This document shows, piece after piece, positions 13,101 to 55,418 of a stretch of 64,000 nucleotides of DNA (positions are counted from its first letter, which is position 1; each line of letters opens with the position of its first letter). The stretch is from contig ONAD01000003.1 of the NCBI GenBank assembly GCA_900315735.1, positions 1 to 64,000 of the forward strand, written 5' to 3'. The notes below the pieces were generated by a model. It saw nothing but the letters and a program-made list of their open reading frames with translations. It was not told where the DNA came from and searched no databases. A program made the position numbers and the translations under genes. The stretch comes from an uncultured Lachnospiraceae bacterium. Its GTDB lineage: Bacteria; Bacillota; Clostridia; Lachnospirales; Lachnospiraceae.

Positions 13101-13867
13101 ATGTGTCCTTGAGGCAGCGTGTGCAGCAGGCGGAGGAAGTTTCGGATAATCTGTATGAAAAGATAAAGGAACAGTTATCCTATCAGTATCCGCATCAGGA
13201 AGCCATTCATCTGGTGACAAAATATTCTGTATCGGAATTAAAACACCGGGCAATGAGGGAACTTGCAGCAAAGGAAGAAGAGGATGTTACACCGAAATTC
13301 TTAGAAGAAGTATCTACCCCATATGTCCCGGCATTTATGGAAGGAAAAGCAGAAGTAAATCAGGGAGCACTGCGTGGAACAGCCATGCATCGTCTCATGG
13401 AATGCTATGATTTTACGAAAATGCCGGATTGTTCCGATGAATTTGCAGAGAATATAAAAAAGCAGTTGACAGGACTGGTACAAATGGGTAAAGTATCTGA
13501 GGATATGCAAAAATTAATCCGTATACCATCCGTGGAATTATTCTTAAAATCGCAGCTTGCCCCCCGTATGAAAGCAGCTGCAATGCGGGATGATTTGTTC
13601 CGCGAGAAGCCGTTTGTCATGGGAAATCATGAGATGGAAGAAGAGATGGTTTTAATCCAGGGAATCATAGATGTTTTCTGGGTGGAAGAAGATGGAATCG
13701 TACTGCTTGATTATAAGACAGACCGGGTAGATAGTGCCACAAGGCTGCGGGATATGTATAAGGAACAGTTAGACCTATACGCAGAAGCGTTAGAGCGGAT
13801 ATTCCCGCTTCCGGTGAAGGAGAAGTACCTTTATTCCTTCCGGCTGAATCAGGCAATTGAAGTATAA
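10190..13867 (+). CDS. addA: ATP-dependent helicase/nuclease subunit A (AddA)
   Basis: A 1,225-residue UvrD-type helicase and nuclease, partner of AddB. Walker A is AAAGSGKT with Lys30; the Walker B/DEYQDSN motif is near residue 396, followed by VGDVKQSIYRFR. The motif VAFTRAKEKL is near residue 890. The C-terminal RecB-like nuclease shows GIIDVFWVEEDG...LLDYKTD around 1155-1180. Between about residues 523 and 563 there is a Gln/Lys/Glu-rich stretch (KQQELKQQETKRQQVKQQ) that looks like an inserted charged helix. AAGGAGG lies 11 bases before the ATG; a second Met two codons later is an alternative start. Confidence 0.95.
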   Translation: MGMTWTKEQQQVIDLRNRNILVSAAAGSGKTAVLVERIKELVLDKEHPVDIDHLLVVTFTNAAAAQMKERVAKALEKALQENPSDVRLQQQAALVQNAQITTIDSFCLYVLRNHFHEIGLEPNFRIGDEGELKLLREDVMTRLFEQCYEEKHPGFLHLISCYGTSRSDAPVRDMIFKLYSYAQSYPWPKQWLREALSCYEIKTEQELEQASFIEMTVEYGRQMVKGFLEQAEHYLELCHDIDGPYMYEEACEKDAERMEELLSCDTYQDFYEKLRNCKFATLGRAKEYFGSPEKQEQVKAERKKLKDGIGKLQSDCFALTFEEILEQLALVRSSAEALAEVTERFIDAFAARKQDKNLVDFSDLEHFALEILVEEETGEPTETAKEFQNAYEEIMIDEYQDSNYVQETILRAISRETVGQNNLFMVGDVKQSIYRFRLARPELFMEKFDTYETKDAPCQRIDLHKNFRSRDTVLTFTNDIFYQIMKRNLGGVDYTDEAALYCGADYPAGEKADAFDSEILLTTTQELEEETKKQEAKQQELKQQETKRQQVKQQISKQELEAKLIADRIRKMVGKEEVVDEETGEFRKVRYGDIVILLRSLSEWADLFAEVLNTNGIPAHTISRTGYFSTLEIRTVLNYLRILDNPRQDIPLAAVLKSPMAGLSDEQLARLRLLAADKPYHQCVKLFLESEEKPIEKETTADEDMRTKLKRFSETYEKLRKQTMDIPMHELLQKVLKETGYAIYASALPAGRQRLANLHMLSEKAIAYEKTSYRGLYHFIRYIDELQKYDVDFGEAELVGENEDAVNIMSIHKSKGLEFPVCFVSGMGKSFNKQDSRSKMILHPNLGVGLDIIEEDRRIKVPAFFKKVIARQTELESLGEELRVLYVAFTRAKEKLIITGCIKDEETLQQIESTYCGRKSKELNFKERAEAKTFLEWILPAAAASGSWDKVSYVTPWSMLEDEAAQQITEHVSLRQRVQQAEEVSDNLYEKIKEQLSYQYPHQEAIHLVTKYSVSELKHRAMRELAAKEEEDVTPKFLEEVSTPYVPAFMEGKAEVNQGALRGTAMHRLMECYDFTKMPDCSDEFAENIKKQLTGLVQMGKVSEDMQKLIRIPSVELFLKSQLAPRMKAAAMRDDLFREKPFVMGNHEMEEEMVLIQGIIDVFWVEEDGIVLLDYKTDRVDSATRLRDMYKEQLDLYAEALERIFPLPVKEKYLYSFRLNQAIEV

Positions 13868-13873
13868 GGTGTC

Positions 13874-14380
13874 ATAAGTGATGGGAGGGAAAAGTGTTAA
13901 TAGGAAAAGTTTTTGCGTATGAAGAGCATTTGTTTTATTTTCTTTGAAATACCAGCAGTTCTTAGGCGTATGTTTTCCTTGATGATAAACTGTCTTTCCG
14001 TTGCTTGGACTGACACGTCGCACTGTCCGTTGTCTGCGGATACTACACATGCCTGTAAGGGGCACTAAGAATTTCGGCTGATATATGAACTTCGTCTGGC
14101 AACCGGCACAAATTCACATCCGTGTTCATCTGTGCCTCGCTGGTACATCCTTGTACCAGCGTTGCCTGGTTGCAGACGAAATTCTAAGTGCCCCTAACAA
14201 GCCTATTCATGTATCCGCAGGCAGCGAACCGTGCAATGTGTCTGTCAAACATTGGAAAGACAGTATTTATAGAAAAAAGGAAAACATATGCCTTAGAACT
14301 TCTGCATTTCAAAGGTTAAAGCAAATGCCTTTAGACGTAAAAACTTTCCCGGTAAACTTTTCATCCATTCAATCACTTAT
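13874..14380. repeat. ~507-bp imperfect fold-back (long inverted repeat) between addA and maf
   Basis: Nearly the whole addA-maf gap folds back on itself. Matching blocks from outside in: 13874-13882 with 14372-14380 (9/9); 13906-13914 with 14339-14347 (9/9); 13957-13980 with 14277-14300 (two mismatches); 13989-13999 with 14254-14264 (11/11); 14034-14043 with 14211-14220 (10/10); 14058-14076 with 14177-14195 (one mismatch). The centre carries a separate perfect 10-bp hairpin, 14138-14147 with 14152-14161. It reads in the transcription direction of both neighbours and would form one giant RNA hairpin. It could be a MITE-like element or a structured RNA; no protein is supported. Confidence 0.85.
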
Positions 14381-14408
14381 AACATACCGGAACGTAAGGA
14401 GAAAAAAC

Positions 14409-15014
14409 GTGAAAATAATTTTAGCATCAGCTTCCCCACGAAGAAAAGAACTCTTAGAGCAGCTTGGACTTACCTTTCTGGTATTTCCGGCACAGGGAGA
14501 AGAAAAGCAGGTGGGAGATACGCCTTCTGAGATTGTCATGAATCTGGCAAAGCAGAAAGCGGGAGAGATTTATGAGAAGATGATAGAAGCCAAAGTAGGA
14601 GAGCAGGACAGCCTGGTAATCGGTGCAGATACCGTTGTGGTAAAGGATGGCAAAGTGCTGGGCAAACCGAAGAACCGGGAGGATGCATTTGCAATGCTAA
14701 AGGGACTTTCCGGCAGTACCCATGAAGTCTATACCGGAGTGTCACTCTGGATGCGGGAAAATGGGAAAAAGGTACAGTACAGCTTTTTTGAATGTACGAA
14801 AGTTACCATGTATCCGGTTACAGATGAGGAACTGAACCGCTATATAGACACCGGGGAACCGATGGATAAAGCAGGTGCATACGGAATACAGGGAAAAGCG
14901 GCAGCATTTATCGAAAAAATCGATGGTGATTACAATAATGTAGTAGGTCTTCCGATTGCCCGGATTTATCAGGAGTTAAAACAATTAGGTATTGATGTGT
15001 ATAAATTTTCTTAA
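14409..15014 (+). CDS. maf: Maf family nucleoside triphosphate pyrophosphatase
   Basis: A 201-residue Maf/YhdE protein, which hydrolyses non-canonical or excess pyrimidine nucleotides (dTTP/UTP and modified forms). Signatures: ILASASPRRKELLEQLGL at residues 3-20, IGADTVV near 76, GKPKNREDAFAMLKGLSG near 90, and GEPMDKAGAYGIQG with DGDYNNVVGLP near the end. The start is GTG 14409, with AAGGAG at 14396-14401, because the family begins exactly there. The in-frame extension back to 14085 runs through the fold-back and is not coding. It is likely transcribed with addBA or from a promoter hidden in the fold-back. Confidence 0.93.
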   Translation: MKIILASASPRRKELLEQLGLTFLVFPAQGEEKQVGDTPSEIVMNLAKQKAGEIYEKMIEAKVGEQDSLVIGADTVVVKDGKVLGKPKNREDAFAMLKGLSGSTHEVYTGVSLWMRENGKKVQYSFFECTKVTMYPVTDEELNRYIDTGEPMDKAGAYGIQGKAAAFIEKIDGDYNNVVGLPIARIYQELKQLGIDVYKFS

Positions 15015-50813: not shown

Positions 50814-52625
50814 ATGTCAATTGACCAGAGTAAGATTCGTAACTTTTGTATCATTGCCCATATTGATCATGGCAAATCAACCCTTGCAGATAGAATTATC
50901 GAGATGACAGGACTTCTGACCAGCCGTGAAATGCAGGCACAGGTCTTAGATAATATGGATTTGGAGCGGGAACGTGGAATTACCATTAAGTCCCAGGCGG
51001 TCCGTATTGTATACCATGCAAAGGATGGCGAAGAATATATTTTCAATCTGATTGACACACCGGGACATGTGGACTTTACTTATGAGGTTTCAAGAAGTCT
51101 TGCTGCCTGTGATGGCGCAGTGTTGGTAGTAGATGCGGCGCAGGGTATCGAAGCACAGACCCTTGCCAATGTATATCTGGCATTGGACCATGATCTGGAA
51201 GTGATTCCGGTGATTAATAAAATTGATCTGCCAAGTGCAAGACCGGAAGAAGTAGTAGAAGAAATTGAAGATGTCATCGGAATCGAGGCACAGGATGCAC
51301 CGCGGATTTCCGCAAAAACCGGCTTGAATGTAGAAGAAGTATTAGAGCAGATTGTGCATAAGCTGCCGGCACCTAAAGGCGATGCCAAGGCTCCGCTTCA
51401 GGCGTTGATTTTTGACTCTGTTTATGATGCGTATAAAGGTGTTATTGTATTCTGCAGAATCCGGGAAGGTTCCGTAAAACCGGGGACAACCATCCGCATG
51501 ATGGCAACCGGAGCAGAAGCAGATGTTGTAGAAGTGGGATATTTTGGAGCCGGACAGTTCATTCCATGTGATGAGCTAGAAGCCGGAATGGTAGGTTATA
51601 TTACCGCCAGCCTTAAGAATGTGAAAGAAACCCGTGTGGGTGATACCATAACAGAAGCAAAGCGTCCATGCGCCGAGCCGCTGCCTGGATATAAGAAAGT
51701 CAATCCGATGGTATACTGTGGATTATATCCAGCAGATGGAGCTAAATATCCGGATCTTCGTGATGCTTTGGAAAAATTGCAGTTAAACGATGCAGCTTTA
51801 CAGTTTGAACCGGAGACTTCCATTGCATTAGGATTTGGTTTCCGTTGCGGATTCTTAGGACTGCTTCACTTAGAAGTCATTCAGGAACGCTTAGAGAGAG
51901 AATTTAATCTTGATTTAGTAACAACAGCACCAGGTGTTGTATACCGGGTACATAAGACCGATGGTACCATGATAGAACTGACCAACCCATCCAATCTTCC
52001 GGATCCATCCGAAATCGAATATATGGAAGAGCCGATGGTTGCAGCAGAAATTATGGTAACATCCGAATATGTAGGAGCCATTATGGACTTGTGCCAGGAA
52101 CGCCGTGGTGTCTATAAGAGCATGGAATATATTGAACAGACCCGTGCCGTGATTAAATATGACCTTCCGTTAAATGAAATTATCTATGATTTCTTTGATG
52201 CATTGAAATCCCGTTCTAAGGGATATGCATCCTTTGACTATGAGATGAAGGGGTATGAGCAGTCAGAACTTGTGAAGCTGGATATTCTTATTAATAAAGA
52301 AGAAGTGGATGCCCTTTCTTTCATTGTATTTAAAGATACCGCCTATGAGCGTGGAAGAAAGATGTGCGAGAAGTTAAAGGAAGAGATTCCGAGACACCTA
52401 TTCGAAATCCCAATTCAGGCAGCCGTTGGAAGCAAGGTAATTGCCCGTGAGACAGTAAAGGCAATGAGAAAAGACGTGCTGGCAAAATGTTACGGTGGTG
52501 ACATCAGCCGTAAGCGTAAACTGTTGGAGAAACAGAAGGAAGGTAAGAAACGTATGCGTCAGGTGGGAAATGTAGAGATTCCACAGGAGGCATTTATGAG
52601 TGTACTGAAGTTAGATGAGAAATAG
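50814..52625 (+). CDS. lepA: Elongation factor 4 (back-translocase LepA)
   Basis: A 603-residue translational GTPase. G1 is [13 protein letters not shown] (residues 15-27), G3 DTPGHVDF near 83, G4 NKIDLP near 137, and G5 SAKTGLNV near 167. The LepA-specific C-terminal domain ends with [24 protein letters not shown]. It acts on stalled or mispositioned ribosomes and affects initiation. AAGGAG lies before the ATG, which comes 4 bases after the previous gene. It runs on to hemW, a very common gene order in Firmicutes. Confidence 0.97.
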
Positions 52626-52635
52626 GAGAACACAG

Positions 52636-53823
52636 ATGGAGCTTTATGTGCATATTCCTTTTTGTGTAAGAAAATGTGAATACTGTGATTTCTTATCAGC
52701 ACCTGCGGACGAGCGGTTACAAAACCGCTACGTAGGTGCTCTTTTGCATGAAATCAGATATTATGGGCAGGCGATGGGACGTCCGGCTCTTTCTACTATA
52801 TATATAGGAGGAGGAACACCGTCTCTTTTGGCACCGGAATATATCGCACTTTTGTTAAAACAGATTCAGGTAAGCTTTGCGGTAGAAGCAGATGCAGAAA
52901 TTACCATAGAATGTAATCCCGGAACTTTAAATGAAGAAAAACTTCTTACCTATAAAGAAGTGGGAATTAACCGCCTCAGCATGGGATTGCAGTCTACCTT
53001 TGATGATGAATTAAAGATATTGGGAAGAATCCATACTTACCGGCAGTTCTTAGAGAATTATGAATGTGCCAGAAGATGTGGCTTTGAAAATATCAACATT
53101 GATTTGATGAGTGCCCTGCCTTATCAGAGCACGGAGAAATTTGTCACCAGCTTAAAGCGCGTTATTGCATTAAAACCGGAGCATATTTCAGCCTATTCCC
53201 TGATTATCGAAAAGGGAACGCCATTCTATGAAAAATATAAATTCGAAGCAGTACTCCGGGAAGCCGGAAAGCCGACAGAGCATCTGCCATCAGAAGAGAC
53301 GGAGTATGAAATTTATAAAAAGACCCAGGAGATTCTTGCAGAGGCAGGCTATGAGCATTATGAAGTATCCAATTATGCGAAGCCGGGGAAAGAAGCAAGA
53401 CATAATATCGGATACTGGAAGCGTGTGCCGTATCTTGGCGTAGGACTTGGCGCAGCTTCACTGATTGGAGAAGTACGCTACAGTAATATAAGAGAAATCG
53501 AAGCTTATATCAAAGCATGCGGAAACATCTTGGCGCAGGAAATAGATGGAGTACCGGCATTGAATCTCCATGAGAGTGCAGATGAAATCAGCCGCCATGC
53601 CCAGATGGAAGAATTCATGTTCTTAGGACTGCGTATGTTAAAAGGAGTCACCAGAGCAGAATTCAAAGAAACCTTTGGTGTGGAAATCGAAGCAGTATAT
53701 GGCGAAGTCTTAAACCGGCTTCAGGAAGAGGACTTAATCGAGAAAAAAGCCGGCGTTATAAAGCTCAGTGACCATGGCATGGACATCAGCAACTATGTAC
53801 TTGCACAGTTCCTGCTGGATTAA
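52636..53823 (+). CDS. hemW: Radical SAM heme chaperone HemW
   Basis: A 395-residue radical SAM protein starting at ATG 52636 with TAGGAG upstream. HIPFCVRKCEYCDF (residues 5-18) holds the Cys-x3-Cys-x2-Cys that binds the [4Fe-4S] cluster and SAM. IYIGGGTPSLL near residue 55 and GLQSTFDDELKILGRIH near 115 follow. The C-terminal HemN domain (EEFMFLGLRMLKGV) is present. HemW proteins deliver heme and are often mislabelled as coproporphyrinogen oxidase (HemN). The gene order lepA-hemW-hrcA is typical. Confidence 0.92.
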   Translation: MELYVHIPFCVRKCEYCDFLSAPADERLQNRYVGALLHEIRYYGQAMGRPALSTIYIGGGTPSLLAPEYIALLLKQIQVSFAVEADAEITIECNPGTLNEEKLLTYKEVGINRLSMGLQSTFDDELKILGRIHTYRQFLENYECARRCGFENINIDLMSALPYQSTEKFVTSLKRVIALKPEHISAYSLIIEKGTPFYEKYKFEAVLREAGKPTEHLPSEETEYEIYKKTQEILAEAGYEHYEVSNYAKPGKEARHNIGYWKRVPYLGVGLGAASLIGEVRYSNIREIEAYIKACGNILAQEIDGVPALNLHESADEISRHAQMEEFMFLGLRMLKGVTRAEFKETFGVEIEAVYGEVLNRLQEEDLIEKKAGVIKLSDHGMDISNYVLAQFLLD

Positions 53824-53931: not shown

Positions 53932-54181
53932 ATACTTATACCATAAAAAATACGGACGATTCCATCTTACCGGTCCGATTACATACTTTCTTAGAGACAT
54001 CTGGATTTTCTTAGAAATCCCAGGCAATGGCTGCACAGGGAAGTGCAGACAAGGTGCAATGGAGCATGGATGCGACTTTGCACCGCTTGCCGGGAACAAC
54101 ACATCTACCCCGGAAAATCCTGCTGTCTCTTAGAAAGCATGTACGGACCGATAAGATAGAATCGTCTATTTTTATAAGTAT
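53932..54181. repeat. 250-bp imperfect fold-back between hemW and hrcA
   Basis: A second long inverted repeat. Matching blocks: 53932-53939 with 54174-54181 (8/8); 53955-53977 with 54144-54166 (21/23); 53981-53999 with 54124-54142 (17/19). The middle contains smaller hairpins, such as CTGCAC/GTGCAG near 54030 and GGTGCAA/TTTGCACC between about 54053 and 54085. It fills most of the hemW-hrcA gap, upstream of the hrcA promoter. The preceding stretch 53824-53931 has short imperfect repeats of CAGAACTGAATC type and nothing else recognised. No protein is supported. Confidence 0.8.
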
Positions 54182-54374: not shown

Positions 54375-55418
54375 ATGAACGAGAACGAATTAGATGAAAG
54401 AAAAACAAAAATCTTAAATGCAATCATTCGCAACTATCTGGAAACGGGTGAGCCGGTTGGTTCAAGAACCATTTCCAAGTATACGGATTTGAACTTAAGT
54501 TCCGCAACAATCCGGAATGAGATGTCGGACTTAGAAGAGATGGGATATATTTTACAGCCGCATACATCGGCAGGAAGAATTCCATCCGATAAGGGATATC
54601 GCTTCTATGTAGATAATCTGATTGCAGAGAAGGACAAAGAAGTATCCGATATGAAAGAGTTCGTAATTGAGCATACGGAGAAGATGGAACAGGTATTGCA
54701 GCAGGTGGCAAAGCTGTTGGCGAACAACACGAATTACACCACCATGATAACAGCACCGCAGTACCACCACAACAGCCTGAAATTCATTCAGTTATCCAAT
54801 GTGGATGATGAGCATATTCTGGCAGTTGTCGTATTGGAAGGCAATCTTGTAAAGAATAAGATGATTCCGATAGAAGAACCGATAGACAATGAGCATATGT
54901 TAAAACTTAACATGCTTTTGAATACACATTTAAATGGATTGTCATTAGATCAGATTAATCTGGGCACCATAGCAGTGTTGAAAGAAAAAGCCGGTATCCA
55001 TTCCAAAGTCATCAGCGATGTATTGGATGCAGTAGCAGAAGCAATCAGCGAAGACGAGGATTTGGAGATATATACCAGCGGCGCAACGAATATCTTTAAA
55101 TATCCGGAGTTATCGGATTCGCAGAAAGCCGGAGAGCTTTTAAATGCGTTAGAAGAGAAGAAACAGTTAGTAAGTCTGGTGACGGATAACCTCAACAATG
55201 AGGAAAACGGCATACAGGTTTATATAGGAGATGAATCTCCAATTCAGACCATGAAGGACTGCAGCGTGGTAACAGCCACCTACGAACTTGGCAAAGGCGT
55301 AAAAGGAACGATAGGAATTATCGGACCGAAGCGTATGGATTATGAAAATGTCATGGATAATCTGAAGAATTTGAAATCACAACTGGAAGGCATATTTGAT
55401 AAGCCGAAGAAAGAATAG
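54375..55418 (+). CDS. hrcA: Heat-inducible transcription repressor HrcA
   Basis: A 347-residue repressor of class I heat-shock genes. The N-terminal winged helix (residues 1-75) has IIRNYLETGEPVGSRTISK and SSATIRNEMSDLEEMGYI; the rest is the inserted dimerisation and GAF-like region. HrcA binds CIRCE sites and is kept active by GroEL. The window holds two such sites, here and before htpG. GGAGAAAG lies before the ATG. It is the first gene of the operon. Confidence 0.96.
   Translation: MNENELDERKTKILNAIIRNYLETGEPVGSRTISKYTDLNLSSATIRNEMSDLEEMGYILQPHTSAGRIPSDKGYRFYVDNLIAEKDKEVSDMKEFVIEHTEKMEQVLQQVAKLLANNTNYTTMITAPQYHHNSLKFIQLSNVDDEHILAVVVLEGNLVKNKMIPIEEPIDNEHMLKLNMLLNTHLNGLSLDQINLGTIAVLKEKAGIHSKVISDVLDAVAEAISEDEDLEIYTSGATNIFKYPELSDSQKAGELLNALEEKKQLVSLVTDNLNNEENGIQVYIGDESPIQTMKDCSVVTATYELGKGVKGTIGIIGPKRMDYENVMDNLKNLKSQLEGIFDKPKKE

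Follow-up and report, generated by a model that had tools for sequence, protein, structure and literature searches.

The closest described relative of the element analyzed here is the TwoAYGGAY RNA (Rfam RF01731; Weinberg et al., 2010), a family whose function has been unproven since 2010 and for which binding to CsrA is already predicted, as it was proposed in 2015 to be a CsrA-binding RNA of Clostridia (Gardner and Eldai, PMC4333381). The CsrA consensus obtained by SELEX is RUACARGGAUGU, in which ACA and GGA are invariant and which is mostly located in hairpin loops (PMC7652899). Furthermore, RNA antagonists of CsrA have not been found in FliW-using bacteria, and it has been stated that the two types of antagonist exclude each other (PMC7366521).

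The window, i.e., the whole stretch of 64,000 nucleotides that was analyzed, comes from an uncultured Lachnospiraceae bacterium whose nearest named relatives, judged by AddA, are Roseburia-like Lachnospiraceae. Between the end of addA (13867) and the GTG start codon of maf (14409, with a ribosome-binding site near 14397), the window contains a large fold-back (Table 1). The first-pass annotation had described a fold-back occupying this gap at 13874-14380, with a 100-base centre that has its own perfect hairpin; all of this is correct, the pairing being slightly longer (~13869 to ~14388) and the perfect hairpin being the one at 14139-14160. The predicted RNA folding energy of the region 13860-14420 is -253 kcal/mol on the plus strand and -244 kcal/mol on the minus strand, whereas dinucleotide shuffles give -135 ± 7 and -131 ± 7, respectively (z = -17.8 and -16.9), and the folding that had been suggested as a check thus gives a structure strongly more stable than shuffles on both strands (z about -17). 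A local alignment of the two arms gives 79% identity over 192 columns. The suggestion of an undescribed structured RNA stands in part: there is a structured RNA inside the fold-back, but it belongs to an already described family, with a whole-model score far over the curated cut-off (94.4 versus 43 bits), and lies on the strand opposite to addBA-maf. Its AYGGAY-type loops, AAGGAT in hairpin 1 and ACGGAT in hairpin 2, are both enclosed by the closing stem.

Table 1. Features of the addA-maf fold-back and a second TwoAYGGAY copy in the window.
Feature	Coordinates	Strand	Evidence
Whole fold-back element, addA-maf gap	13869..14388	.	Self-alignment and fold; gaps of relatives without the element
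TwoAYGGAY RNA core (Rfam RF01731), model 1-168, full length	14044..14209	-	cmscan 94.4 bits, gathering 43, E 3e-15
Hairpin 1, candidate CsrA-type site, loop ACAAGGATGT, GGA 14150-14148	14139..14160	-	Sequence, Rfam structure line, loop statistics (n = 59 copies)
Hairpin 2, second candidate CsrA-type site, loop ACACGGATGT, GGA 14121-14119	14106..14135	-	Sequence, Rfam alignment, loop statistics
Left arm (3' of the core on the TwoAYGGAY strand)	13869..14043	.	Pairs with 14210-14388, ~79% identity
Right arm (5' of the core on the TwoAYGGAY strand)	14210..14388	.	Pairs with left arm, ~79% identity
Second copy of TwoAYGGAY (window), short-armed class	53979..54144	+	83.9 bits; arms 47/37 bp beyond the core

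The fold-back is real and is not local to addA-maf. A search with the Rfam model identified 59 TwoAYGGAY copies, all over the cut-off, in the host genome (2.8 Mb in 50 contigs), and a DNA search of the same assembly matched the fold-back to ~40 further places. Genomes of the same genus contain 0, 3, 1, 3, 0, 19, and 14 copies, and more distant relatives 0 to 20 each. Given that in 7 of 7 same-genus relatives addA and maf are adjacent, separated by 10-49 bp and without the element, the addA-maf copy is an insertion. The element is also missing between these genes in Roseburia hominis An869 (22 bp gap), L114 (17 bp), and L126 (28 bp), and in L098 the gap is 330 bp and maf is more distant. The location inside the gap of an apparent single operon could point to a local RNA or a regulator of addBA/maf, and a local transcription-translation regulator had indeed been proposed, but the absence of the element from all same-genus relatives that retain the adjacency, together with the 58 copies elsewhere, makes such a role extremely improbable.

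Oppositely oriented TwoAYGGAY copies recur as pairs, within ~0.6 kb, in several genomes (G015:C47:139778-140356, G015:C33:53805-54433, and G104:C1:72285-72913 and 113114-113694).

Long arms, which extend past the core by ~170-210 bp or more, are present in ~24 of the 59 copies, and the rest have shorter arms. Ends like GGYGATTGCGAAAAG are common to many copies, on both sides and at similar distances, although they are not recognizable in all. Core-less palindromes related to the arms were identified as well (G007:C81:3043-3249, G006:C60:10592-10639, G007:C137:5507-5540, and probably G000:C7:11541-11670), the first of which occupies the site of a complete element in G006, upstream of a gene taken for metG. 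Together with the dispersal of the copies and the presence of one IS200-type Y1 transposase gene in the host genome and in G006, these features are compatible with a simple miniature mobile element that lacks an RNA function and whose core hairpins are recognized as DNA by a transposase (e.g., a single-strand Y1 enzyme). The MITE-like character that had been suggested is indeed apparent from the 59 copies, the inverted ends shared by many of them, and the empty sites in relatives. However, copies elsewhere combined with target duplications had been named as the mark of a transposon-like element, and only the former were found, with the addA-maf neighbors kept in relatives: no direct target repeats were seen outside the recognizable ends in copies with clear ends, and the few copy-specific bases that match just outside the ends do so in inverted, not direct, orientation. 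Moreover, no element sequence adjoins the Y1 transposase genes at the loci in three genomes, no RAYT transposase flanked by repeats or other partner gene was found at these loci, and none of the six solitary end matches belongs to paired ends around a transposase.

Two other candidate features of the family were rejected: an apparent arm replacement in the orthologous pair G006:C49/G007:C63 is an artefact of a contig end, and placement of elements inside terminator loops, hinted at by a few G006/G007 copies, fails for the addA-maf site. A short perfect palindrome, ACTGTATAGGAATTCCTATACAGT (L151 3008-3023, after a T-box-like terminator near valS), is also found at ~25 other places in G006/G007 and seems to be another dispersed palindromic repeat.

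The pairing in the core and in the arms differs in kind. The arms of each copy were aligned as DNA, with no credit for G-T, and the transitional mismatches were counted on the TwoAYGGAY strand; because the copies are related, the events counted are not independent. In the core of the host genome copies, G-U pairs outnumber A-C clashes 132 to 18 (106 versus 15 in the stem and 26 versus 3 in the hairpins), which means that pairing at the RNA level is selected for here, on the TwoAYGGAY strand. The same tendency is observed in the relatives (28 versus 11 in the core; 126 versus 117, i.e., unbiased, in the arms) and, in a weaker form, when the counts are made per column (16 G-U-rich versus 5 A-C-rich columns in the core, 9 versus 14 in the arms). 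Double-sided Watson-Crick changes are present in 20 of the 29 core stem pairs among the copies of the host genome. The restriction of the G-U bias to one strand of the core is difficult to account for by a mobile element recognized solely as DNA.

By contrast, the arms of the host genome copies show 325 G-U versus 414 A-C. An A-C clash on one strand is a G-U pair on the opposite strand and, given the lack of a G-U excess, the arms do not appear to be selected as RNA of the TwoAYGGAY strand. The first-pass annotation had noted by eye a G-U excess in the arms of the addA-maf copy (~8 to 4 on the plus strand) as a hint that RNA pairing is kept there; upon realignment, this copy gives 12 to 8, which is not significant, and the proposal is rejected for the arms of all copies, the bias residing instead in the core, on the minus strand. 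Nevertheless, the similarity of an arm to its partner within a copy exceeds that to the equivalent arm of other copies (0.84 versus 0.68, for instance, at 100-140 bases out, against a background of ~0.64 with the gapped comparison method), and in the absence of a G-U bias this suggests that the arms are kept alike within each copy at the DNA level. An exception is found in long copies at a distance of 40-70 bases (0.79 for the own partner versus 0.83 for other copies).

Among 11 orthologous pairs of copies in G006 and G007 (a twelfth, affected by a contig end, was left out), divergence is 1.5% in the core, compared to 2.6% in the next 60 bases of the arms and 5.7% in the flanks beyond, which are largely genes (core versus flank, p = 4e-18). 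The low divergence of the core is consistent with selection, short of proof, because inverted repeats have been reported to diverge less than the sequence around them as a result of mutational effects, even without a function (PMC8604942). Two of the 12 orthologous copies are inverted relative to both flanks. Replication template switching has been reported to homogenize the arms of inverted repeats and to flip the spacer that they enclose (PMC8604942; also PMC8794818), and given that both effects match the pattern described here, it is the most likely cause of the arm homogenization and spacer inversion. Recombination between the arms would produce the same pattern.

The link to CsrA follows from the loops of the core. 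The motif CANGGANG occurs 109 times in the loops of the 59 sense cores, 0 times on the antisense strand of the same cores, and 3 times in 42 kb of arms, the commonest loop 10-mers being ACAGGGATGT and ACATGGATGT. At least two GGA hairpins of the CANGGANG type that match the CsrA consensus are present, on one strand, in 50 of the 59 copies, and these loops are accordingly predicted CsrA consensus sites; in G006/G007, 18 of 32 cores have two such motifs by the strict pattern, and in others the loop is one base shorter. In the host genome, csrA adjoins fliW, with flaG, and the flagellin leader (L187 1540-1610, minus strand) contains two candidate CsrA-type sites of the same type as the core loops, namely GACATGGAACGTC and a hairpin CGCAAGGATGCG located directly upstream of the ribosome-binding site. 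The match of the core loops to both the CsrA consensus and the flagellin leader is another observation that a mobile element without an RNA function leaves unexplained.

In a survey of 200 Lachnospiraceae genomes from 199 genera, csrA was detected in 34 of the 35 genomes with TwoAYGGAY compared to 74 of the 165 others (p = 1.8e-9, statistics that ignore phylogeny), the sole exception being G186, which has a TwoAYGGAY copy but in which csrA was not detected. The association may be one with motility, as the distributions of csrA and flagellin in the 200 genomes are nearly equal (108 and 110, respectively) and all 35 TwoAYGGAY genomes encode flagellin, so that csrA and motility are inseparable here. 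In either case, the presence of the element tracks genomes with csrA and flagella. Considering this together with the strand-specific bias and the loop sequences, we regard the mobile element lacking an RNA function as a doubtful, although not negligible, alternative.

A second, divergent CsrA (an open frame of 93-132 aa) is encoded on the same strand a few hundred bases upstream of flagellin in at least eight genomes of Lachnospiraceae (G061:C54:9961-10763, G189:C36:6505-7369, G214:C55:1240-2034, G056:C137:2949-3747, G075:C9:22266-23015, G192:C3:17092-17909, G008:C90:16518-17309, and G161:C16:6276-7079). In G161, this is the only CsrA found. The arrangement looks like a dedicated CsrA-flagellin pair.

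The orientation of the copies bears on whether they act in cis. Based on simple ORF calls, 23 copies in the host genome are in sense and 12 antisense to co-directional neighbors, 21 are located between divergent genes, and 3 between convergent genes; the sense bias relative to co-directional neighbors is weak. The possibility that TwoAYGGAY is a cis-acting 5' UTR regulator, with CsrA or another protein deciding the translation of the downstream gene, is favored by the 44 of 59 copies that point in sense at a downstream gene, several of which end right before a ribosome-binding site. However, many copies in G006/G007 have convergent genes on their two sides, in-place inversion affects some of them, the addA-maf copy is missing in relatives and runs antisense, and the motif was scored 'n' for cis-regulation in the table of its discoverers (PMC2864571); hence we consider a cis-regulatory role quite improbable. 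At addA-maf, the RNA strand opposes the operon, so that read-through would yield the strand without the CsrA sites, and this copy, which has a promoter match at chance level and no terminator, is probably silent or weakly expressed rather than an active decoy. Other copies are in sense, e.g., the second one in the window, which is oriented like both of its neighbors (52615-53823 and 54375-55418, both on the plus strand).

Taken together, these observations suggest that RNA decoys for CsrA are being spread by a repeat. We propose, with a probability of about two in three, that this is a dispersed non-coding fold-back with a TwoAYGGAY loop that acts as a distributed CsrA decoy or as a transcript mark, the CsrA sponge being the most likely mechanism. 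Under this proposal, the TwoAYGGAY strand would be transcribed by read-through or from an outside promoter, the two GGA hairpins of the transcribed core would bind one CsrA dimer, and the set of copies would titrate CsrA as a sponge or tag the carrier transcripts for it. The arms would be kept palindromic by a process acting on DNA, of which template switching during replication is the most likely candidate, as it would also generate the inversions. In an extended version, which is speculative and in our opinion improbable, the element could be a spreading invertible decoy: each insertion would add a pair of CsrA sites, a flip of the core would switch the decoy on or off in a given transcript, and copy number and orientation would tune the CsrA-FliW-flagellin balance.

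Compared to CsrB, CsrC, RsmX, RsmY, and RsmZ, the element shares GGA-loop hairpins with the CsrA consensus, here as a pair apparently fit for a CsrA dimer, but in Gammaproteobacteria those RNAs are products of a single dedicated gene or a few such genes rather than of dozens of dispersed copies, and, unlike the bacteria in which CsrA-sequestering sRNAs operate, this host uses FliW. If the decoy interpretation is correct, RNA mimicry of CsrA reaches beyond Gammaproteobacteria and exists alongside FliW, and in gut Lachnospiraceae the dosage of a global regulator would be set by the copy number of a repeat. The element resembles REPINs, REP doublets, and bacterial MITEs in being short, dispersed, intergenic, palindromic, and non-coding, with tens of copies, but differs from them in the conserved RNA core under strand-specific selection and in that neither a RAYT or other partner gene nor target duplications were found. 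The contrast between the G-U-biased core and the unbiased arms also shows how selection on RNA can be told apart from a correction of the arms at the DNA level, a process that can imitate covariation. With the TwoAYGGAY RNA, the element shares the full-length core, both AYGGAY hairpins, and the closing stem; the Rfam model, however, spans only the 168-nt core, which is here surrounded by long outer arms, and neither a high-copy dispersed fold-back, nor inversion in place, nor core-less relatives were found for this family in the literature searched. Thus, as far as we could find, the dispersed fold-back architecture and the two-layer selection are new, and the known RNA family appears here in a new setting, a high-copy fold-back repeat that inverts in place and in which RNA-level selection is confined to the core.
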